A stretch of 11,699 bases of DNA, from the NCBI GenBank assembly GCA_001430745.1, contig KQ482076.1, forward strand, positions 245,628-257,326, read 5' to 3'. Positions 2 through 8,482 of the stretch are shown in pieces (the stretch's first letter is position 1; each line of letters opens with the position of its first letter). The notes under the pieces are model-generated. The model ran no database searches and was not told where the DNA came from. It was given only the letters and a program-made list of their open reading frames with translations. Source of the stretch: Auxenochlorella pyrenoidosa (taxonomy: Eukaryota; Chlorophyta; Trebouxiophyceae; Chlorellales; Chlorellaceae). The translations under genes were made by a program, and so were the position numbers.

Positions 2-226
2 CCGCCACCCAGCCCTTCCCCGCCGCCACCCCGCCCGTCTCCACCTCCTCCTTTGCCGTCACCGCCTCCTCCAAGAAAAGCACCGCCGCCACCAAATAAA
101 AAGGCCCCACCACCACCCCGCCCCCGGCCGCCTCGCCCAGCACCGCCGCCCCGGCCCCGGCACAAACCGCCGCCGCCCTGGGCTCGGCCAGCTCCGCAGC
201 GCCTGCCGCCGCCACCACGCAAGGTG
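2..226 (+). other. Proline-rich exon segment (SPPPP / KAPPPP repeats)
   Basis: Open from the window edge, with Pro codons at more than half of positions and Ser, Lys and Arg between the Pro runs. Such blocks are typical of rod-like hydroxyproline-rich wall proteins in green algae. The block ends near position 223-229, where two overlapping donors (AAG|GTGGTG and GTG|GTGAGG) both leave phase 0. The open frame beyond 230 loses the Pro bias, which supports an exon end here. The low complexity gives no family identity. Confidence 0.65.
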
Positions 227-972
227 GTGAGGTTTGGGCAAGGAAGCGTGTCCAGTGGGCATTGGGCCGATACTGCGCGAGTTTAAGGCTGCATAAACAT
301 AAACCTTCATACAACTGTGCAGGCCCAAGCAGCCTTTTACTCGTTTGCAACCTCTGGCCATCTTCACTTGCAGTGCGCACGCGCCGGCGAGCAGTGCGAG
401 CGGTCCACGCTGTGCTGCCCAGGCTCGACATGCGTCACGATTAGTGCGCGAGGCGGGCTGTGCGTGAGCGCCCGGGTGAGCCTGGCAGGGTGCACCAGTC
501 ACGTGACTCGTGCACAGGGCAGTGCAGCGGAGCGTTTGCTTGGCGGGCGGTGATGTCGAGCCTGCCCATGTACCGCAACAGTGTCGCGCAGACGCGGTGG
601 CCAGTGGGCACTGGCCCATGGTGCGCTGGCTTTTTGGCTGCACGCTCATGAATCTGCATACAACTGCAGGCCCAATCAGCCTGTTTACCCATTTACGACC
701 TCTGGCCATCTTCACTTGCAGTGCGCACGCGCCGGCGAGCACTGCGGCCGGTCCACGCTGTGCTGCCCGGGCTTGACATGCTTCGCAATCAGCGCGCGAG
801 GCGGGCTGTGCGTGCGCGCCCGGGTGAGCCGGCGTCCAGGCTCCCAGCGCGGCGCCTTGGGCACAGGGCCCTGCAGCGAAGCTGTTGGTTGGCAGATGTC
901 GATCCTGACCATGTCCCACAGAGGTGTCGTACAGACGCAGAGCCAGGGGATGTAGTTAGATGCATCATATGA
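2..972 (+). CDS. Proline-rich (extensin-like) protein with two knottin-like cysteine modules, 5'-partial, 5 exons
   Basis: Probably a secreted or cell-wall hydroxyproline-rich glycoprotein; the 5' end and any signal peptide lie outside the window. Proposed exons: 2-226 (or 2-223), 374-475, 528-596, 722-823 and 877-972 (TGA), all joined in phase 0. Exon 1 reads as SPSPPP, SPPPP and KAPPPP blocks with interspersed Lys and Arg, as in extensin or pherophorin spacers. Exons 2 and 4 (34 codons each) encode six cysteines spaced C-x6-C-x5-CC-x4-C-x9-C, beginning CARAGE. This is the spacing of inhibitor-cystine-knot (knottin) folds. Exons 3 and 5 each add two cysteines around a shared HVPQ-x-C-R core. 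Exon 5 continues to a stop after VVRCII. Conserved donors (CGG|GTGAGC) and acceptors (cttgcag, ctgcag) in both copies support the model. The introns of 52 and 53 nt are very short. No family was recognised. Knottin assignment rests on cysteine spacing only, and function is unknown. Confidence 0.68.
374..475 (+). other. Knottin-like cysteine module exon, copy 1
   Basis: A symmetric 102-nt exon, phase 0 at both ends, between acceptor cttgcag and donor GTGAGC. It encodes 34 residues with cysteines spaced C-x6-C-x5-C-C-x4-C-x9-C and a CCPG core. An alternative donor at 464 (TGC|GTGAGC) exists only in this copy. The donor at 476 is conserved in both copies and is preferred. Confidence 0.7.
722..823 (+). 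other. Knottin-like cysteine module exon, copy 2
   Basis: Same length, phase and splice sites as copy 1. All six cysteines and the RSTLCCPG core are retained. Nine codons differ from copy 1. Six of these change the amino acid (Q/H, E/G, S/L, V/F, T/A, S/R) and three are silent, and the replacements all fall between or after the cysteines. Confidence 0.7.
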
Positions 973-1278
973 AGCAGCATGGGCAGCAACACCACCTAGT
1001 CAGTCGGTTGCTCACATGGTACCTTCGCCCCTTGCTGCAGAACTGATGGCGTCCTGCATTGATGCTGGGCGCGGCCTGCCGCCATGCCAGCAGCGAGCAA
1101 GGTGCCACGCACCAAGGGGGCTCAGCGCCAGCTCTGCCAGCGCTGCCAAGCTGGCATGCACGGTGCGGCTTTGCTAGCGGTTGCAAGCTGCTCACAAGGA
1201 GCCTGGGGCTGCCAGCGGGCCCTTGCCGCCAACACATAACAGCAAGCAGCTGTTCGACACACCCTGCACATGTCCACC

Positions 1279-2378: not shown

Positions 2379-5300
2379 ATGGCCACCGAACTCGCGGCTG
2401 CGGGTTTTGAGGGCTTGGACGCAGCGGACAATGAGGCTATATTTAAGAGCGACGCCTTTCGCATGCAGCACATGAAGGTAAGGGGTCGCGGCCGCTCCCG
2501 AGGGGCACGGGAATGCTCGCGCCCTCCCTGGCAGCTCCTCGGGCGGCTCCTGAGGCCCCCGCTAGCCCCGACGACTCTCTGAGACGTCTAGGATCGCACA
2601 ACATCCCGCGGCGGAGAAGGGAGTCGGGTTTGCAGCTTCTGCTTGGTGCTGCTTCTGCTCTCCGCCGCCCCAGCTCGGCCCGCAGCTGGCCCCTGAAGCC
2701 CACGATCTGCTTGCTGTCGCGCAGGTGCTGCCCTGCTCCAAGCGGTTCGTCCATGACTGGACAGAGTGCCCGTTTGCGCACCCGCAAGAAAAGGCACGGC
2801 GGCGTGACCCACGTGTGCACAACTACACAGGCATCGCCTGCCCCTCTATGAAAAAGGTGAGCACCTGTTAGGGCAGCCCTGGCTACCCTTGAGGGCCGCG
2901 CGTTCCTCATTCGGGAGCGCGCATGATACCGAGCATTGCTAATGGGTCCACGCTCGGTGCATCCTGTTTGGAACTGCCGCGGGTTCCGACACCTGGTAGC
3001 GCTCGGCAGGGCGTTGCTCGCAGCATTCAGCGCTGCTGAGGCTCTTTGGCGCCGCGGCGTCAGCGGGCTTTCGCCGCGCCGGAACAAAACATTGCCCAGC
3101 ACGATACCCGTCCCGCTGGTCCTCCACCCCTGCAGGAGGGTTGCTGCGCCTTTGGCGACCACTGCCCATATGCACACAACGTCTTCGAGTACTGGCTGCA
3201 TCCAACACGGTGGGTGCTGGGCTGGCGCTGTGCCTGGTTGTGATGCATGGTTTGAAGCGGTGCCGTGTACCGCACGTAAACATGCAGCGGTCACTTGCGA
3301 GCAGCCAGCAGCCGGTAAGTACACCACCGCCTGCGCCCCAGCATGCACCCGCTGGCCCTTGCCCCCCCGGCAGGTACCGCACCCAGCTCTGCAACGACGG
3401 CAGCAACTGCAAGCGCAAGATCTGCTTCTTCGCGCACAGGTGCGACCGGCGCCGCGCCTTTGCGGCGAGAGTATCTGCTGACCCCCGCCCTGCGCGCTCG
3501 TTTCGTTTCGGCTGCAAAGCTGTGGCACACGTGCAGGCCAACCAAGCCTCGCAGGCCGGATGCCTGTCCACGCTGAGCGCTCCGCCCCCCCAAGACCCGC
3601 CAACACTCCACCCCCACCGCCACCCTACCCCACTCCTCCTGCCGCAGCCTGGACGAGCTGCGCGTGCCCGCCTGCAAGCCGTTTGTCTCCCCAGAGGCGC
3701 TGGCCTCTGCCGCCGCCTCGGCTGCCGCAGACGCCGAGGCCAAGCGCAAGGCGGCCACCATCGGCAGCCCCCTGTCGGCCTTTGCCGCGCTGTCGCCCGG
3801 CCCCTCGCCGCAGCGCTCCAGCCTTGACGCCCTGCGCGCCGCCTCGCTGGCAGCCGAGGTGCGGCTGAGCGGCGCCTCGGTGGTGGCGCCGCACTCGCCG
3901 GCCACGGCAGACGAGATGGCGGCGCCGCCGGGCACCCCGCATGCTGAAGCGGCAGTGCATGCCACGCTGGCGCAGCTGGCGGGCGCCGGCTTCACCGCGC
4001 AGGCGCGCGCAGGGCCGGGCGGGGTTGTGCAGCCAGCTCGGGTGCCCCAGCATGGGCAGGGCTAGCGCTGCGTGGCGGGACCTGTGGCAGGCAGCCCCCG
4101 CCCGCGCCTGGCTGCAGCCCTGTGCGTGTGTCTCTGCCTGGACAGGCGCCCCGCTTAGGCCGCCCACCCCGCCTACCCACGCCCTCTCCCTGGCCCCCCC
4201 CCGCCTGTGTGTGCAGGACCAGCAGGTGATTGAGCTGGTGACCGGACTGCTGGCGCAGGACAAGGTGACCCCGGAGCAGGCGGCCACCATCCTGCAGCAG
4301 ATGCTGCCGCCCGGCACGCTGAGCCAGCTGCAGGCGCACCTGACCACGCCGCGCGGCGCGGAGGAGGGGCGCTACAGGTGAGGGTCCTCTGGCGCGACCT
4401 GCTCGGGCTGCTGGCCGGGTGGCTGTGTGCGTGTGTGCGCGCCTGGGGGGCGCTGCAGACTGCTGCGCAACAGCACGCGCATTGTTCTCCTGCTGAGGGC
4501 ATCTGGAGAGCGCCCCGCAGCTGCCAGGCTCGCCCCTCTTGAGTCGGAGCAGCAGGGGGTGAGGCAGCTGCATGGGCGCTGAACTGCAGCCCAACCCCCG
4601 GTGCCATGCTCAACCCGCCGTGCCTGCCGCGCCTGCTGCCTCCTGCCTTGCAGCGACCCGCTCAGCCCGGCCGCCACGATGCGCGGCGGCAGCTTTGAGG
4701 GCGCGTCGTCGGCGCCGTCGGCGCTGGCCGGCTCCCCCGCCCGGCAGCTGCCGCAGCAGCCGGCTGGCCTGACCATGGAGCAAGTGGCTGCTGTGCAGGC
4801 GGCGCACAGCCTGGGCATGGGCTACTCTGGTGGGTTGCGGCGCGCCGCCGCCCTGCTGTGCATGCCGAGCCGGGCGCGTGCCTTGCGCTCTGGCGGCCAG
4901 CGCACCACATGGCACTCGCACTGCTCCCACCATGCGCCCCTGCTCCAGCCTCCGCCCTCGCCCCTCCCCCCTGCTGCGCAGGCGGCCCCTCGCTGGCGAG
5001 CCACAGCCTGATGGGCCACATGGGCCAGGAGGCCCCCCGCCAGAGCATGGACAGCCTGCGCTCCAGCTTTGACACAGGTGCTGCCCCGCCTGCCCCCCGT
5101 AGCTGCCGCAGCAGCAGCAACAGCAGCACGGGCACTGAGCCTGGCGGGCAGTCGCTTGCTGAGGGGGGCAAGGGTGTGGGGGAGCAAGTGCAGACAGCGC
5201 CAGCTCAGGCACGGGGGGCAGGGCAGCCTGACCAGCAGCAGGCGCAGCAGCATGCACGGCAGCCGCAGCAGCACTTGGGCCTGCAGCAGCAGACGCCCAG

Positions 5301-7631
5301 AGTCTCGGCAGAGGCGGCTCTGCAGCGGGCGTCACTGGAGGAGGGTGCCGCCGCTGCCTCGCAGAAGCGTGCAGCACAGCAGCAGGCGGCACTGCACGCT
5401 GCGCAGCAGCACCCGCACCAGCATGCCCTGCTGCATGCCCTGCTGGCCCCGCAGCCGCAGCAGCGCGGCAGCGCGGCAGTCGAGGCGGCGCTGCAGCAGC
5501 GTCGCCACCTGCTGCAGCTGCACACGCTGCAGCAGCACCTGCTGCAGCAGCAGCAGGCCGCGGCCGGCGGCCAGCGGCCCAGCGAGGACTCGAGTGCGTA
5601 GTCTAGGCCTAGCGCTTGGCTTGCCCGCATGCCTGCTGCCCACCCGTCGCCAGCCGCGCCCTGCCTGCCTCGCCCGCCTGTGTGCCGCTGCCCACCTGCT
5701 GCCCCGCGCGCTGCTGCGCGCCGCACAGTGCTTTCCTGCCGAGCGAGCCAACTGCATGACTGGCACCGAGTCCCCGCAAAGACAGCCGTGGCAGCAGGCA
5801 GCAGGCAGCGGCACTTGGCGCGGTGCCGCGGCTCACGGGCCCAGCCTGACAGCCAGCGTCTCCATCTGTAGACCCCTGGATGGGCCGACCCCGTGGCACC
5901 CGCCTGACCCTCTGCACACCCCCCTTCCCTGGGCCTGCCTGCCCTGCAGCCCGCATGAGCTTTGAGATGGGTGGCCGCGGCAGCATGGACATGCTGGGCA
6001 CGCCGCGCACCAGCCTGGATGCCACCTACCCCTCCAACCTGGTGCCCACCCTGTCGGGCAGCCTCTCGGGGCAGGTGCGCTGGCCCTGCTATGTGGCTGG
6101 GTCGCTGCGTTGTGACCCTCTGGTTGGGGCACATCTTGTGTGTGCGTCTTGCGCTTGTGCGTCTTGCTGCATCTTGATTGGCAGGCGGTGGGGAGATGGC
6201 AGGGGGAGCGGTGGCGCACCGGGTCGTCGAGGCAGGCAGCCGCTGCTCTTTCCAGTCGTCCCTGCCCTGCGGCCCTGCTCTTGCCGCAGCGCACCGCCGC
6301 CGCAGCGCTGGCAGCGGCCCCCGGGCCGGCAGGGCCGGCCACGCCCTCGCACGACGGGGGCGAGATGCTCTTGCGCAGCCAGAGCGTGCCGCCTGGCCGC
6401 GTGGCGCGCGTGAGTGCGGCCCCCATGCCGACACAGGGCGCCCAGGCCCAGCGTACCAACCCTCCTGATGCCAACTTGTGCCCCTTGCGCTGCGTCCAGG
6501 GCCACGCGCGCCCACCCAAGCCGAGCCGCCCACCCGCTGCTCCCCCCAACGCCACTCCCTCCCCCTGCATCGCCGCTCATCCGCCCCGCCCCGCGCCCCG
6601 CCCCCACGCCCCCGCAGTTCTCCTCTGGCCAGCTCAGCTCGGTGCCCGAGGGCTTCCCCATCATCAACGCCCCGCCCCCCAGCTCCAGCTGGGGCGCCGG
6701 CCGCTTCTCGGTGGACTCTGCCGCCGACCGGCTGAGCGAGGACCTGAACCGCCTGAGCTTCGAGGGCGCCGCCAGGTGAGGGGGGGCCCTGCTCCGCAGG
6801 CCCAGGGCCAGGGCTTGCACGCACGGCACCCCTGCACAACCCGCAGCGGACGAGGGCTTCCGGCCCCCGGCTGCATGGCTGCCCCACAGGCGGCGCGTGC
6901 CCGGCCAGCAGCCGCTGGGATCGCAGCCCCCGGTGTTGGTCTGTGACGCTCTGTGGCCTGCGCGCGCCTCACTCCCCCTCTCCTGCACCCGCTCGCCCGC
7001 TCCCCCTCCCCTGCAGGGCGGCGCCCAACCCCACCGCCAACCCCTACGCCTCCAGCTTCTTTGCCCCAGGCGCCACCGCAGCCGCCGCCCTTGGGGCCGG
7101 CATGGCCGACCGGCGCAGCCTGAGCCTGCCGCCGCTGCCGCCCGTGCGCACGTCCGCCCCTGGGCGCTCCGCAGGTGGGGGGTGCTCCGCGCCTGGGTTG
7201 GGCCAGCCTGCCCACGGCGGCCCCAGCCTGCCTTGACCGGCTCATGCTGCTGCGCACCAGGCGGCATGCCGCGCCTGGTTGCCGCAGGCGGGGAGCAGGC
7301 TGTGCTGCGTCGGTTTGAGCACCGACCTCCGGCCCCTGCTGCCCTGGCTGTCTCAAGCTGTGCTGCGTGGGCTGAACACCGACCTCCCACCCCTGCTGCC
7401 CTGGCTGTCTCAAGCTGTGCCGCGTGGGCTGAACACCGACCTCCCACCCCTGCTGCCCTGGCTGTCTCAAGCTGTGCTGCGTGGGCTGAACACCGACCTC
7501 CCGGCCCTGCTGCCCTGGCTGTCTGTGCAGGGCACGACCAAGAGGAGGCGGCCGCGATTGCCGCTGCCAACGCCGCTGCCCACCACCACCAGCAGCTGCT
7601 GGGCGGCACGGCCATGCACCGCCTGCAGTGA
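2379..7631 (+). CDS. RR-TZF (plant-type arginine-rich tandem CCCH zinc finger) RNA-binding protein, 13 exons
   Basis: The RR-TZF family binds RNA, typically AU-rich 3' UTR elements, acts in P-bodies and stress granules, and promotes mRNA turnover. Exons: 2379-2477, 2725-2856, 3136-3209, 3374-3439, 3648-about 4023, 4217-4377, 4654-4829, 4982-5593, 5950-6074, 6290-6409, 6618-6775, 7017-7174 and 7261 (or 7531)-7631. The longest product is about 875 residues. Zinc ligands: C37-x5-H43-x4-C48-x3-H52, the family's leading motif; an arginine-rich KARRRDPR; then C72-x8-C81-x5-C87-x3-H91, a 16-residue linker containing YWLHP, and C108-x5-C114-x4-C119-x3-H123. The rest is Ala/Ser/Pro/Gln-rich. The start has good context (GCCATGG), and FKSDAFRM precedes the first motif as in relatives. 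N-terminal ankyrin repeats, found in some plant members, are absent. Junctions are phase-consistent, but the donor of exon 5 is ambiguous (4024, 4027 or 4042), and exons 8 and 13 have in-frame alternatives. The family call is firm; targets are unknown. Confidence 0.9.
2725..3439 (+). other. Zinc-finger core of the RR-TZF protein, split over exons 2-4
   Basis: Exon 2 (2725-2856) carries the leading CHCH motif, the arginine-rich block and the first Cys of the first CCCH finger. Exon 3 (3136-3209) supplies the rest of that finger and the YWLHP linker. Exon 4 (3374-3439) encodes YRTQLC to CFFAH, the second finger. Both CCCH spacings match the RR-TZF consensus, so the RNA-binding unit appears functional. 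Confidence 0.92.
5078..5593 (+). repeat. Gln-rich low-complexity segment with CAG runs, possibly an optional exon part
   Basis: 172 codons in the RR-TZF frame, dominated by Gln, Ala and His with short CAGCAG runs ([13 protein letters not shown]). It starts at a usable donor (ACAG|GTGCTG, 5078) and ends at another (TCGA|GTGCGT, 5594). Both leave phase 1 and both fit the acceptor at 5949. The segment stays open for its full length. It resembles the prion-like regions common in P-body and stress-granule proteins. Whether it is always included cannot be told from DNA alone. Confidence 0.65.
7300..7530 (+). repeat. 57-bp minisatellite, about four copies, at the last exon border of the RR-TZF gene
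   Basis: Copies begin near 7321, 7378, 7435 and 7492 with accgacctcc, and the last is truncated. A degenerate partial copy precedes them near 7300. The period is 19 codons, so the array is open in the RR-TZF frame and would read [19 protein letters not shown] per unit. Acceptors lie on both sides (ending 7260 and 7530) in the same phase. The array is therefore either translated or removed as the 3' end of the last intron. The acceptor at 7530 has the better pyrimidine context. Confidence 0.8.
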
Positions 7632-8482
7632 GGGCGCTCCCGCCGTTGGACACGCCGTATAGCGGCAGGCGCGCGCGCCTGGCGCACCACCTCTGCCTCT
7701 TCTTTTCCCTGCCCCAATTCACCCATCTTATTTCGCCACGGAACCAGGAACGACCGCGGCTCAACATGCCTGGCAGCGGGTCGCACTCCCACCAGCTAGG
7801 CAGCCGCACTTCTGCCTGCCATTTGTGGACAGTACACACGCTTTTCTGCGATATGCACTTGATTGATCCAGGGCCTATACGCACGTCGCAACCACCCCTT
7901 ACCTCGCGTGAAGGGAGCACCACCGCCGCTCACCTTTAATTGCCTGCGGCACACCTCGCAAGTTCTGCCTTTTCATCCCCACGAATCCGCGCCAACAGCA
8001 CCTAAATGTGTTGGCCTTGCTGCCTCAGGTCCCATGCCCGAATGCCCCCCAGCGTTGCCTCTCCCCTAATTTTGCTCACCGCTTGCGCACCAGACCAATG
8101 AATGTCCTCCCCTCTTCTTGCCCGCCCACTCTCTTCCTTCTCGATTCCCCCTTTTCGCGCACGCCGCGCCTTGCATCTGTGCTACATAGGCCTTCCCTTT
8201 TCCCTTGGCACTTTTTCGGGAGCACTGCTGCCATCGGCAGGTGCAAATAAACAACCGATGCTGTGAAGCCAGCCCCCAACCAGCTTTGAACATGGCAAGT
8301 TTAGTTCAATTTCATCTTGCGAAGCTCCATGCCACAGTGCACTCCCCGCCTGGTGTTTGCTTTCGCATTGTCAGTGACCGCCGCCTGGACCCTTCCCCCC
8401 GGGCTGCCAATCCAAGCATCTTCCCGCACCCAACCCAGAACCCGAAGCATGCGCACGTGCGCCTCACCTGCCCAAGCCTTCC
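7632..8482 (+). other. 3' UTR of the RR-TZF gene, pyrimidine-rich, about 850 nt
   Basis: The stretch after the TGA at 7629-7631 is C/T-rich on the + strand with scattered short open frames and no splice-linked coding chain on either strand. Long pyrimidine-rich 3' UTRs fit a green-algal gene. No second gene was seen here. Confidence 0.5.

Follow-up and report, generated by a model that had tools for sequence, protein, structure and literature searches.

A tandem knottin-like exon at the predicted end of a proline-rich protein gene in Auxenochlorella pyrenoidosa

Knottins are best known as small peptides from animals, fungi and land plants. What, then, is a closely matching pair of knottin-like exons doing in a unicellular green alga, and to what kind of gene do they belong? 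We address this question for an 11,699-nucleotide stretch of Auxenochlorella pyrenoidosa DNA (GCA_001430745.1, contig KQ482076.1, positions 245,628 to 257,326; G000:C64:245628-257326 in our numbering of the 65 contigs of this 51.6 Mb genome), hereafter called the window. The answer that we hold to be probable is that the locus is a double six-cysteine knottin gene end that arose by whole-exon duplication, and that its module belongs to an exon family carried on several scaffolds. The duplication, the common exon boundaries and the family are seen directly, while the fold is predicted.

The duplicated unit and its gene

The two copies of the unit lie head to tail and align with a score of 328, against a best score of 30 among 200 shuffled pairs, so that the tandem unit of about 349 bp proposed in a preliminary description of this DNA stands. 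Excluding gaps, the copies are 83% identical in the upstream intron, 89% in the module exon, 72% in the short intron and 78% in a proposed tail exon that is taken up below. The features of the preferred model are as follows (a slash marks a splice junction here and throughout).

248..596, + strand: tandem unit copy 1 (local alignment to 597-939; repeat family D4, 90% over 147 nt)
597..939, + strand: tandem unit copy 2 (local alignment to 248-596)
2..226, + strand: 3' part of an exon for a proline-rich rod, PPPSPSPPPPRPSPPPP...PPPPRKV (open frame, translation, donor at 227)
227..373, + strand: intron between rod and module 1, 147 nt (donor top 2.4%, acceptor 373/374 top 2.5%)
374..475, + strand: module exon 1, CARAGEQCERSTLCCPGSTCVTISARGGLCVSAR, six-cysteine knottin (stop-free translation, homology, predicted fold)
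476..721, + strand: intron between modules 1 and 2, 246 nt (donor top 0.7%, acceptor top 2.5%)
722..823, + strand: module exon 2, CARAGEHCGRSTLCCPGLTCFAISARGGLCVRAR, six-cysteine knottin (stop-free translation, homology, Pfam scan)
824..1040, + strand: intron after module 2, 217 nt (donor top 0.7%, acceptor CCCCTTGCTGCAG/AAC)
1041..1046, + strand: coding end of the terminal exon, AAC TGA (Asn, stop; translation and a parallel on C8)

The two module exons show 11 differences over 102 bases; nine codons are changed, six of them with an altered residue, and all 12 cysteines are retained. Their 34-residue peptides are 82% identical, and both translations, together with strong flanking splice signals, bear out the 102-nt exons with the spacing C-x6-C-x5-CC-x4-C-x9-C that had been proposed. 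Judged by sequence, the two modules are each other's nearest relatives, as their six-cysteine cores are 83% alike and the next-best relatives reach 63% and 67%.

Splice sites were scored with a model built from 13 mapped introns (119-420 nt, median 207), four placed exactly with the related protein P0003 and nine by homology with P0004, one of these with a GC donor; both proteins are described below. Ranks refer to the 452 GT and 725 AG sites of the window. The rod-exon donor GTG/GTGAGG at 227 ranks in the top 2.4% (an alternative donor at 224 in the top 22%), the donors at 476 and 824 in the top 0.7%, and the acceptors 373/374 and 721/722 in the top 2.5%. The last acceptor, 1040/1041, ranks in the top 1.5% and is the highest-scoring between 860 and 1399. 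All three introns of the preferred model thus fall within the mapped length range, with sites within the top 2.5%. The short terminal exon has a counterpart in the C8 relative, which by eye can likewise be read as CIRGQ, an intron and then Gly-stop.

In this model the window is the 3' end of a gene whose product would be a proline-rich, secreted-type protein terminating in two tandem six-cysteine knottin modules, and the simplest splicing would join rod, module 1, module 2 and Asn-stop. Directly upstream lies a run of N of about 5.9 kb (L002 3107-9000, C64:239734-245627); because the window begins at its edge, the start of the rod exon is hidden and the gene enters the window in the middle of a proline-rich exon. 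The copied unit of about 349 bp would comprise a single phase-0 exon for a 34-residue knottin, the intron that precedes it and the flank that follows it. Because both boundaries of the module exon are in phase 0, a second disulfide-locked knob could be gained without a frameshift, in line with the earlier view of the exon as a unit that can be added whole.

A module family on several scaffolds

Searches of the alga's own genome, made with single modules as queries and then repeated with what was found, give counts that are lower bounds. Including the window, we read at least 16 modules at at least 11 loci. Five of these carry one module each (two loci on C26, here C26a and C26b, and one each on C55, C8 and C49), four carry two modules within a single exon (two loci on C61, and C63 and C35), and one further module locus lies on C53. 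In the C53 module (C53:275048-275233, L063) the last loop is 15 residues long; with a second candidate some 5 kb from it (C53:280550-280687), C53 is possibly another cluster. Additional weak candidate places occur on C53, C43 and C49; at weak places on C23, C11 and C30 a script check did not find the module cysteine pattern.

The order C-C-CC-C-C is kept in the 16 own-genome modules and in two from related proteins. C-x6-C-x5-CC occurs in all 16, the following loop has four residues in 15 of them, and the length of the last loop ranges between 8 and 15. The AG acceptor abuts the first cysteine codon in nine of 12 module exons and lies one codon earlier in the other three. The first modules of the C61 and C63 genes are 58-74% alike across genes, whereas each resembles its own gene's second module at 31-46%; because they resemble each other more across genes, that doubling is old and separate. 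As read from these comparisons, there are two independent doublings, an old one within one exon (C61/C63) and a recent one of whole exons in the window. The suggestion that the family grows by exon duplication or shuffling looks right, given 16 modules at 11 loci.

A first protein search found three relatives, P0003, P0004 and P0005, each terminating in one module. P0003 matches the C55 gene exactly across four introns, the last of which is in phase 0 and ends CTGCAG/TGC. P0004 (587 aa) is related to the C26 gene and must be spliced, because its genome matches span about 3.7 kb but its longest contig measures 2175 nt; the 'lgn' contigs that carry P0003 and P0004 are presumably transcript assemblies. 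By homology to P0004, the last intron of the C26 gene (L010, reverse strand, 7045-7206) would begin with GC, making a GC-AG intron. P0005, an annotated protein of Micractinium tetrahymenae, is the sole named relative found and bears out the claim of a module in a green alga. An excerpt of PMC12516953 describes the M. tetrahymenae genome as annotated using RNA-seq data; the link of P0005 to that assembly is unconfirmed.

What precedes the module differs from gene to gene. P0003 and P0005 match the NCBIfam choice-of-anchor R model (37.7 and 45.1 bits, cut-off 30); P0004 has no NCBIfam match, yet it aligns with both, at 32% to P0003. Of the eight C61, C49 and C8 pieces scanned, three pass the Pfam cut-off for NHL, two from one C61 locus and one from C49. 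C49 exons joined by hand also match NHL propellers of solved structure (best E 1.2e-33); the two C8 pieces look NHL-like by eye and have no Pfam match. C35 contains two LysM-like stretches, one at 21.0 (cut-off 20.9) and one below it at 19.2. As a separate observation, this LysM-like C35 protein (L058 about 6425-7712), with its double knottin at the end, holds a possible glycan-binding partner of the knot. A proline-rich rod stands ahead of the module in the window (2-226), C26a/P0004, C8, C49, both C61 loci and C63, and is absent from P0003 and P0005. Gene sequence runs into N at C64, C26b, C61a and C63. By eye, all three related proteins have hydrophobic stretches near the N-terminus; a full-length model of P0003 from a three-row alignment (A3) was poor (pLDDT 48.6).

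Fold and possible function

The predicted module is a small beta sheet with a knottin-like backbone. A knottin is further defined by disulfides I-IV, II-V and III-VI, the last threading the ring; the earlier label of a knottin-like module holds at the backbone level, where the predicted fold is similar to solved knottins. Wrightide R1, a solved plant knottin and alpha-amylase inhibitor, is among the top matches by profile and by fold. The solved chains of wrightide R1 (2MAU/4BFH) and of the asteropsins, plant and sponge knottins, have 30-37 residues, whereas the algal module forms the end of larger secreted-type proteins. Among double-knot proteins, DkTx (6CUC, Foldseek probability 0.91) and the remipede double-ICK (7RZ3, 0.66) likewise have two cystine-knot lobes per chain; in contrast, the algal tandem comes from a recent duplication of an intron-flanked exon and its knots sit behind a proline-rich rod. 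Two unnamed viral proteins in BFVD, A0A6B9UR32 and A0A0M5KJJ9, have a similar predicted knot (probability 1.00; TM by query 0.82 and 0.83, identity 40% and 47%, E 0.08 and 0.12).

The Pfam family Toxin_12 (PF07740, an inhibitor cystine knot family) has a curated cut-off of 21 bits, which was reached in seven of the 11 module stretches scanned, or seven of nine excluding the window copies. The passes are C26b (22.2 bits), C55 (23.3), C8 (23.4) and C49 (21.5), and the two-module stretches of C61 (36.1 and 33.4) and C63 (30.0); one C61 stretch also narrowly passes Dickkopf_N (25.4, cut-off 25). Below the cut-off lie window copies 1 and 2 (19.9 and 20.3), C26a (19.9) and C35 (15.6), and the full-length proteins P0003 (15.8), P0004 (13.5) and P0005 (19.9), although P0005 carries PF07740 as a precomputed label. 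The algal modules have no venom context, and the family name reflects a common cysteine spacing, not a demonstrated activity.

CBM1 domains have a flat aromatic face that stacks on cellulose. Membership in fungal CBM1 (1CBH, 7YHF) was rejected: W, Y or F occurs not at all in copy 1 and once in copy 2, and 0-1 times in each of the 12 exons counted. No sequence relation to CBM1 was shown, and aromatic residues are few in the algal modules.

The net charge is +2 to +9 in each of the 12 module exons counted. According to a review of the green-algal matrix (PMC10762512), Chlorella walls contain cellulose and polymers resembling chitin, and hydroxyproline-rich glycoproteins (HRGPs) are described for the coverings of Chlamydomonas and Volvox; the word 'knot' occurs nowhere in that review. 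Green-algal wall HRGPs likewise have rods rich in SP and PPPP. The protein would be secreted into the wall or matrix, where the small cationic knob would dock the rod to a polymer of the wall or to an anionic partner; a duplicated knob would raise avidity. Our best inference is a cationic, disulfide-locked tip that docks the rod to wall or matrix.

The main rival to docking makes the knob a peptide domain with a defensive or inhibitory role (an amylase or protease inhibitor, or an antimicrobial), displayed on the rod or released from it. The resemblance to wrightide R1, the cationic modules and the Toxin_12 passes would all suit such a domain. Fold similarity does not imply function, however, both window copies fall short of the Toxin_12 cut-off, and the modules sit at or near the C-terminus of larger proteins in which no cleavage site was identified; we regard an inhibitory or defensive role as unlikely.

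More broadly, and tentatively, we propose that in Chlorellaceae one phase-0 exon, which encodes a cationic cystine-knot tip, may serve as a docking module that can be exchanged between proteins. Exon shuffling would have placed it on extracellular scaffolds unrelated to one another (choice-of-anchor R domain, NHL propeller, LysM), in many cases capping a proline-rich rod, and it would have been doubled at least twice. Such a module could amount to a knottin-based code for wall or matrix targeting, in a lineage seemingly without described knottins; we would put this proposal at somewhat less than even. The titles and abstract openings listed for the literature searched, mostly outside subscription journals, yielded no algal knottin family. 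The fold itself is known; as far as these searches show, what seems new is an exon-borne tip on several algal scaffolds.

Alternative readings of the gene end, neighbours and implications

One result weighs against a double knot followed by Asn-stop: no transcript of the window gene was found in three protein searches (candidates of about 222-707, 511-1627 and 67-213 aa; in the second, scoring covered the 7996 candidates sharing most words). P0003 extends 19 residues beyond the knot, so that a short ending after cysteine 6 is not universal, and the C61 genes appear, by eye, to run into another short exon. Left-one-out scores of the mapped sites scatter widely (13 acceptors from -2.5 to 15.0, 12 GT donors from -0.1 to 10.1), and weak sites remain usable in principle because their scores lie inside this spread.

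One rival is a gene that makes only single-module transcripts, with the module exons used alternatively or with the intron downstream of module 1 retained (stop at 551-553), giving isoforms and no double knot. Read-through stays open for 25 codons after module 1 and 43 after module 2, and the extra residues of P0003 past its knot offer a parallel. The donors are nevertheless strong in both copies, and double knots within one exon occur in four other genes; we give isoforms of this kind roughly one chance in five.

Less probable still is the arrangement originally proposed, in which each unit is a knottin exon followed by a short second exon, giving tandem eight-cysteine modules. The proposed second exons are open frames whose exon status is unsupported:

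528..596, + strand: proposed second exon, copy 1, RSVCLAGGDVEPAHVPQQCRADA
877..972, + strand: proposed second exon, copy 2, RSCWLADVDPDHVPQRCRTDAEPGDVVRCII, with stop

Besides the open frames, this arrangement can point to the HVPQ-x-C cysteine in both copies and to third-position substitutions, which make up six of 10 in the tail's 45-nt gap-free block (P=0.08) and six of 11 in the module exon (P=0.12); because the tail's share is no worse than that of the module exon, coding of the tail stays possible. In an own-genome search with a query holding both tails, moreover, the C8 match continues beyond the module and reaches into tail 2 (query 23-76, 41% identity). The third-position excess and the C8 match favour eight cysteines but are too weak to decide. 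Against them, none of the nine matches of that search outside C64 spanned tail 1 alone or tail 2 alone, and the tails (78%) are less alike than the upstream introns (83%). The required introns would be 52 and 53 nt, short of all 13 mapped ones, and the sites are weak, the tail acceptors ranking in the top 15% and 36% and the donor at 597 in the top 18%. Cysteine 7 is not positionally homologous, being GTT TGC (Val-Cys) in copy 1 and TGT TGG (Cys-Trp) in copy 2, and the protein ends 2-3 residues past cysteine 6 at the two C26 loci, C49 and C35 and in P0004 and P0005. Neither the second exons nor the eight-cysteine module of the preliminary description was confirmed; the cysteine 7 mismatch, the intron lengths and the weak sites led us to reject the eight-cysteine module as the main model, and we consider it improbable.

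That the locus is instead a decaying, unexpressed gene fragment, with duplicated exons beside a run of N, would agree with the lack of a matching transcript and with a 5' part lying within that run, but it is very doubtful given that neither module exon contains a stop, both keep their splice signals and none of the 12 cysteines is lost.

Two neighbours deserve mention. Window positions 2380-7630, an extent judged by eye, hold an AtC3H23-like CCCH zinc-finger gene (PF25512, 58.4 bits, hand-joined exons), and within its region lies a minisatellite (7299-7524; 57-nt unit, 3.9 copies, 94% matches). On the far side of the run of N (L002 1-3100, C64:236628-239727) is a gene that we take to resemble a YJU2/CCDC94-type splicing factor (MGERKVLNKYFPP...DFDPSK).

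If the preferred model of a duplicated knottin exon at the end of a proline-rich protein gene is correct, the range of knottins would extend to a unicellular green alga that sets one exon-encoded knot at the tip of several secreted-type scaffolds. The window would then provide a clean natural case of exon duplication, with two intact, intron-flanked copies, 89% identical, in a genome that also holds older double knots. It would also suggest, in concrete form, how proline-rich glycoproteins may be anchored in algal walls.
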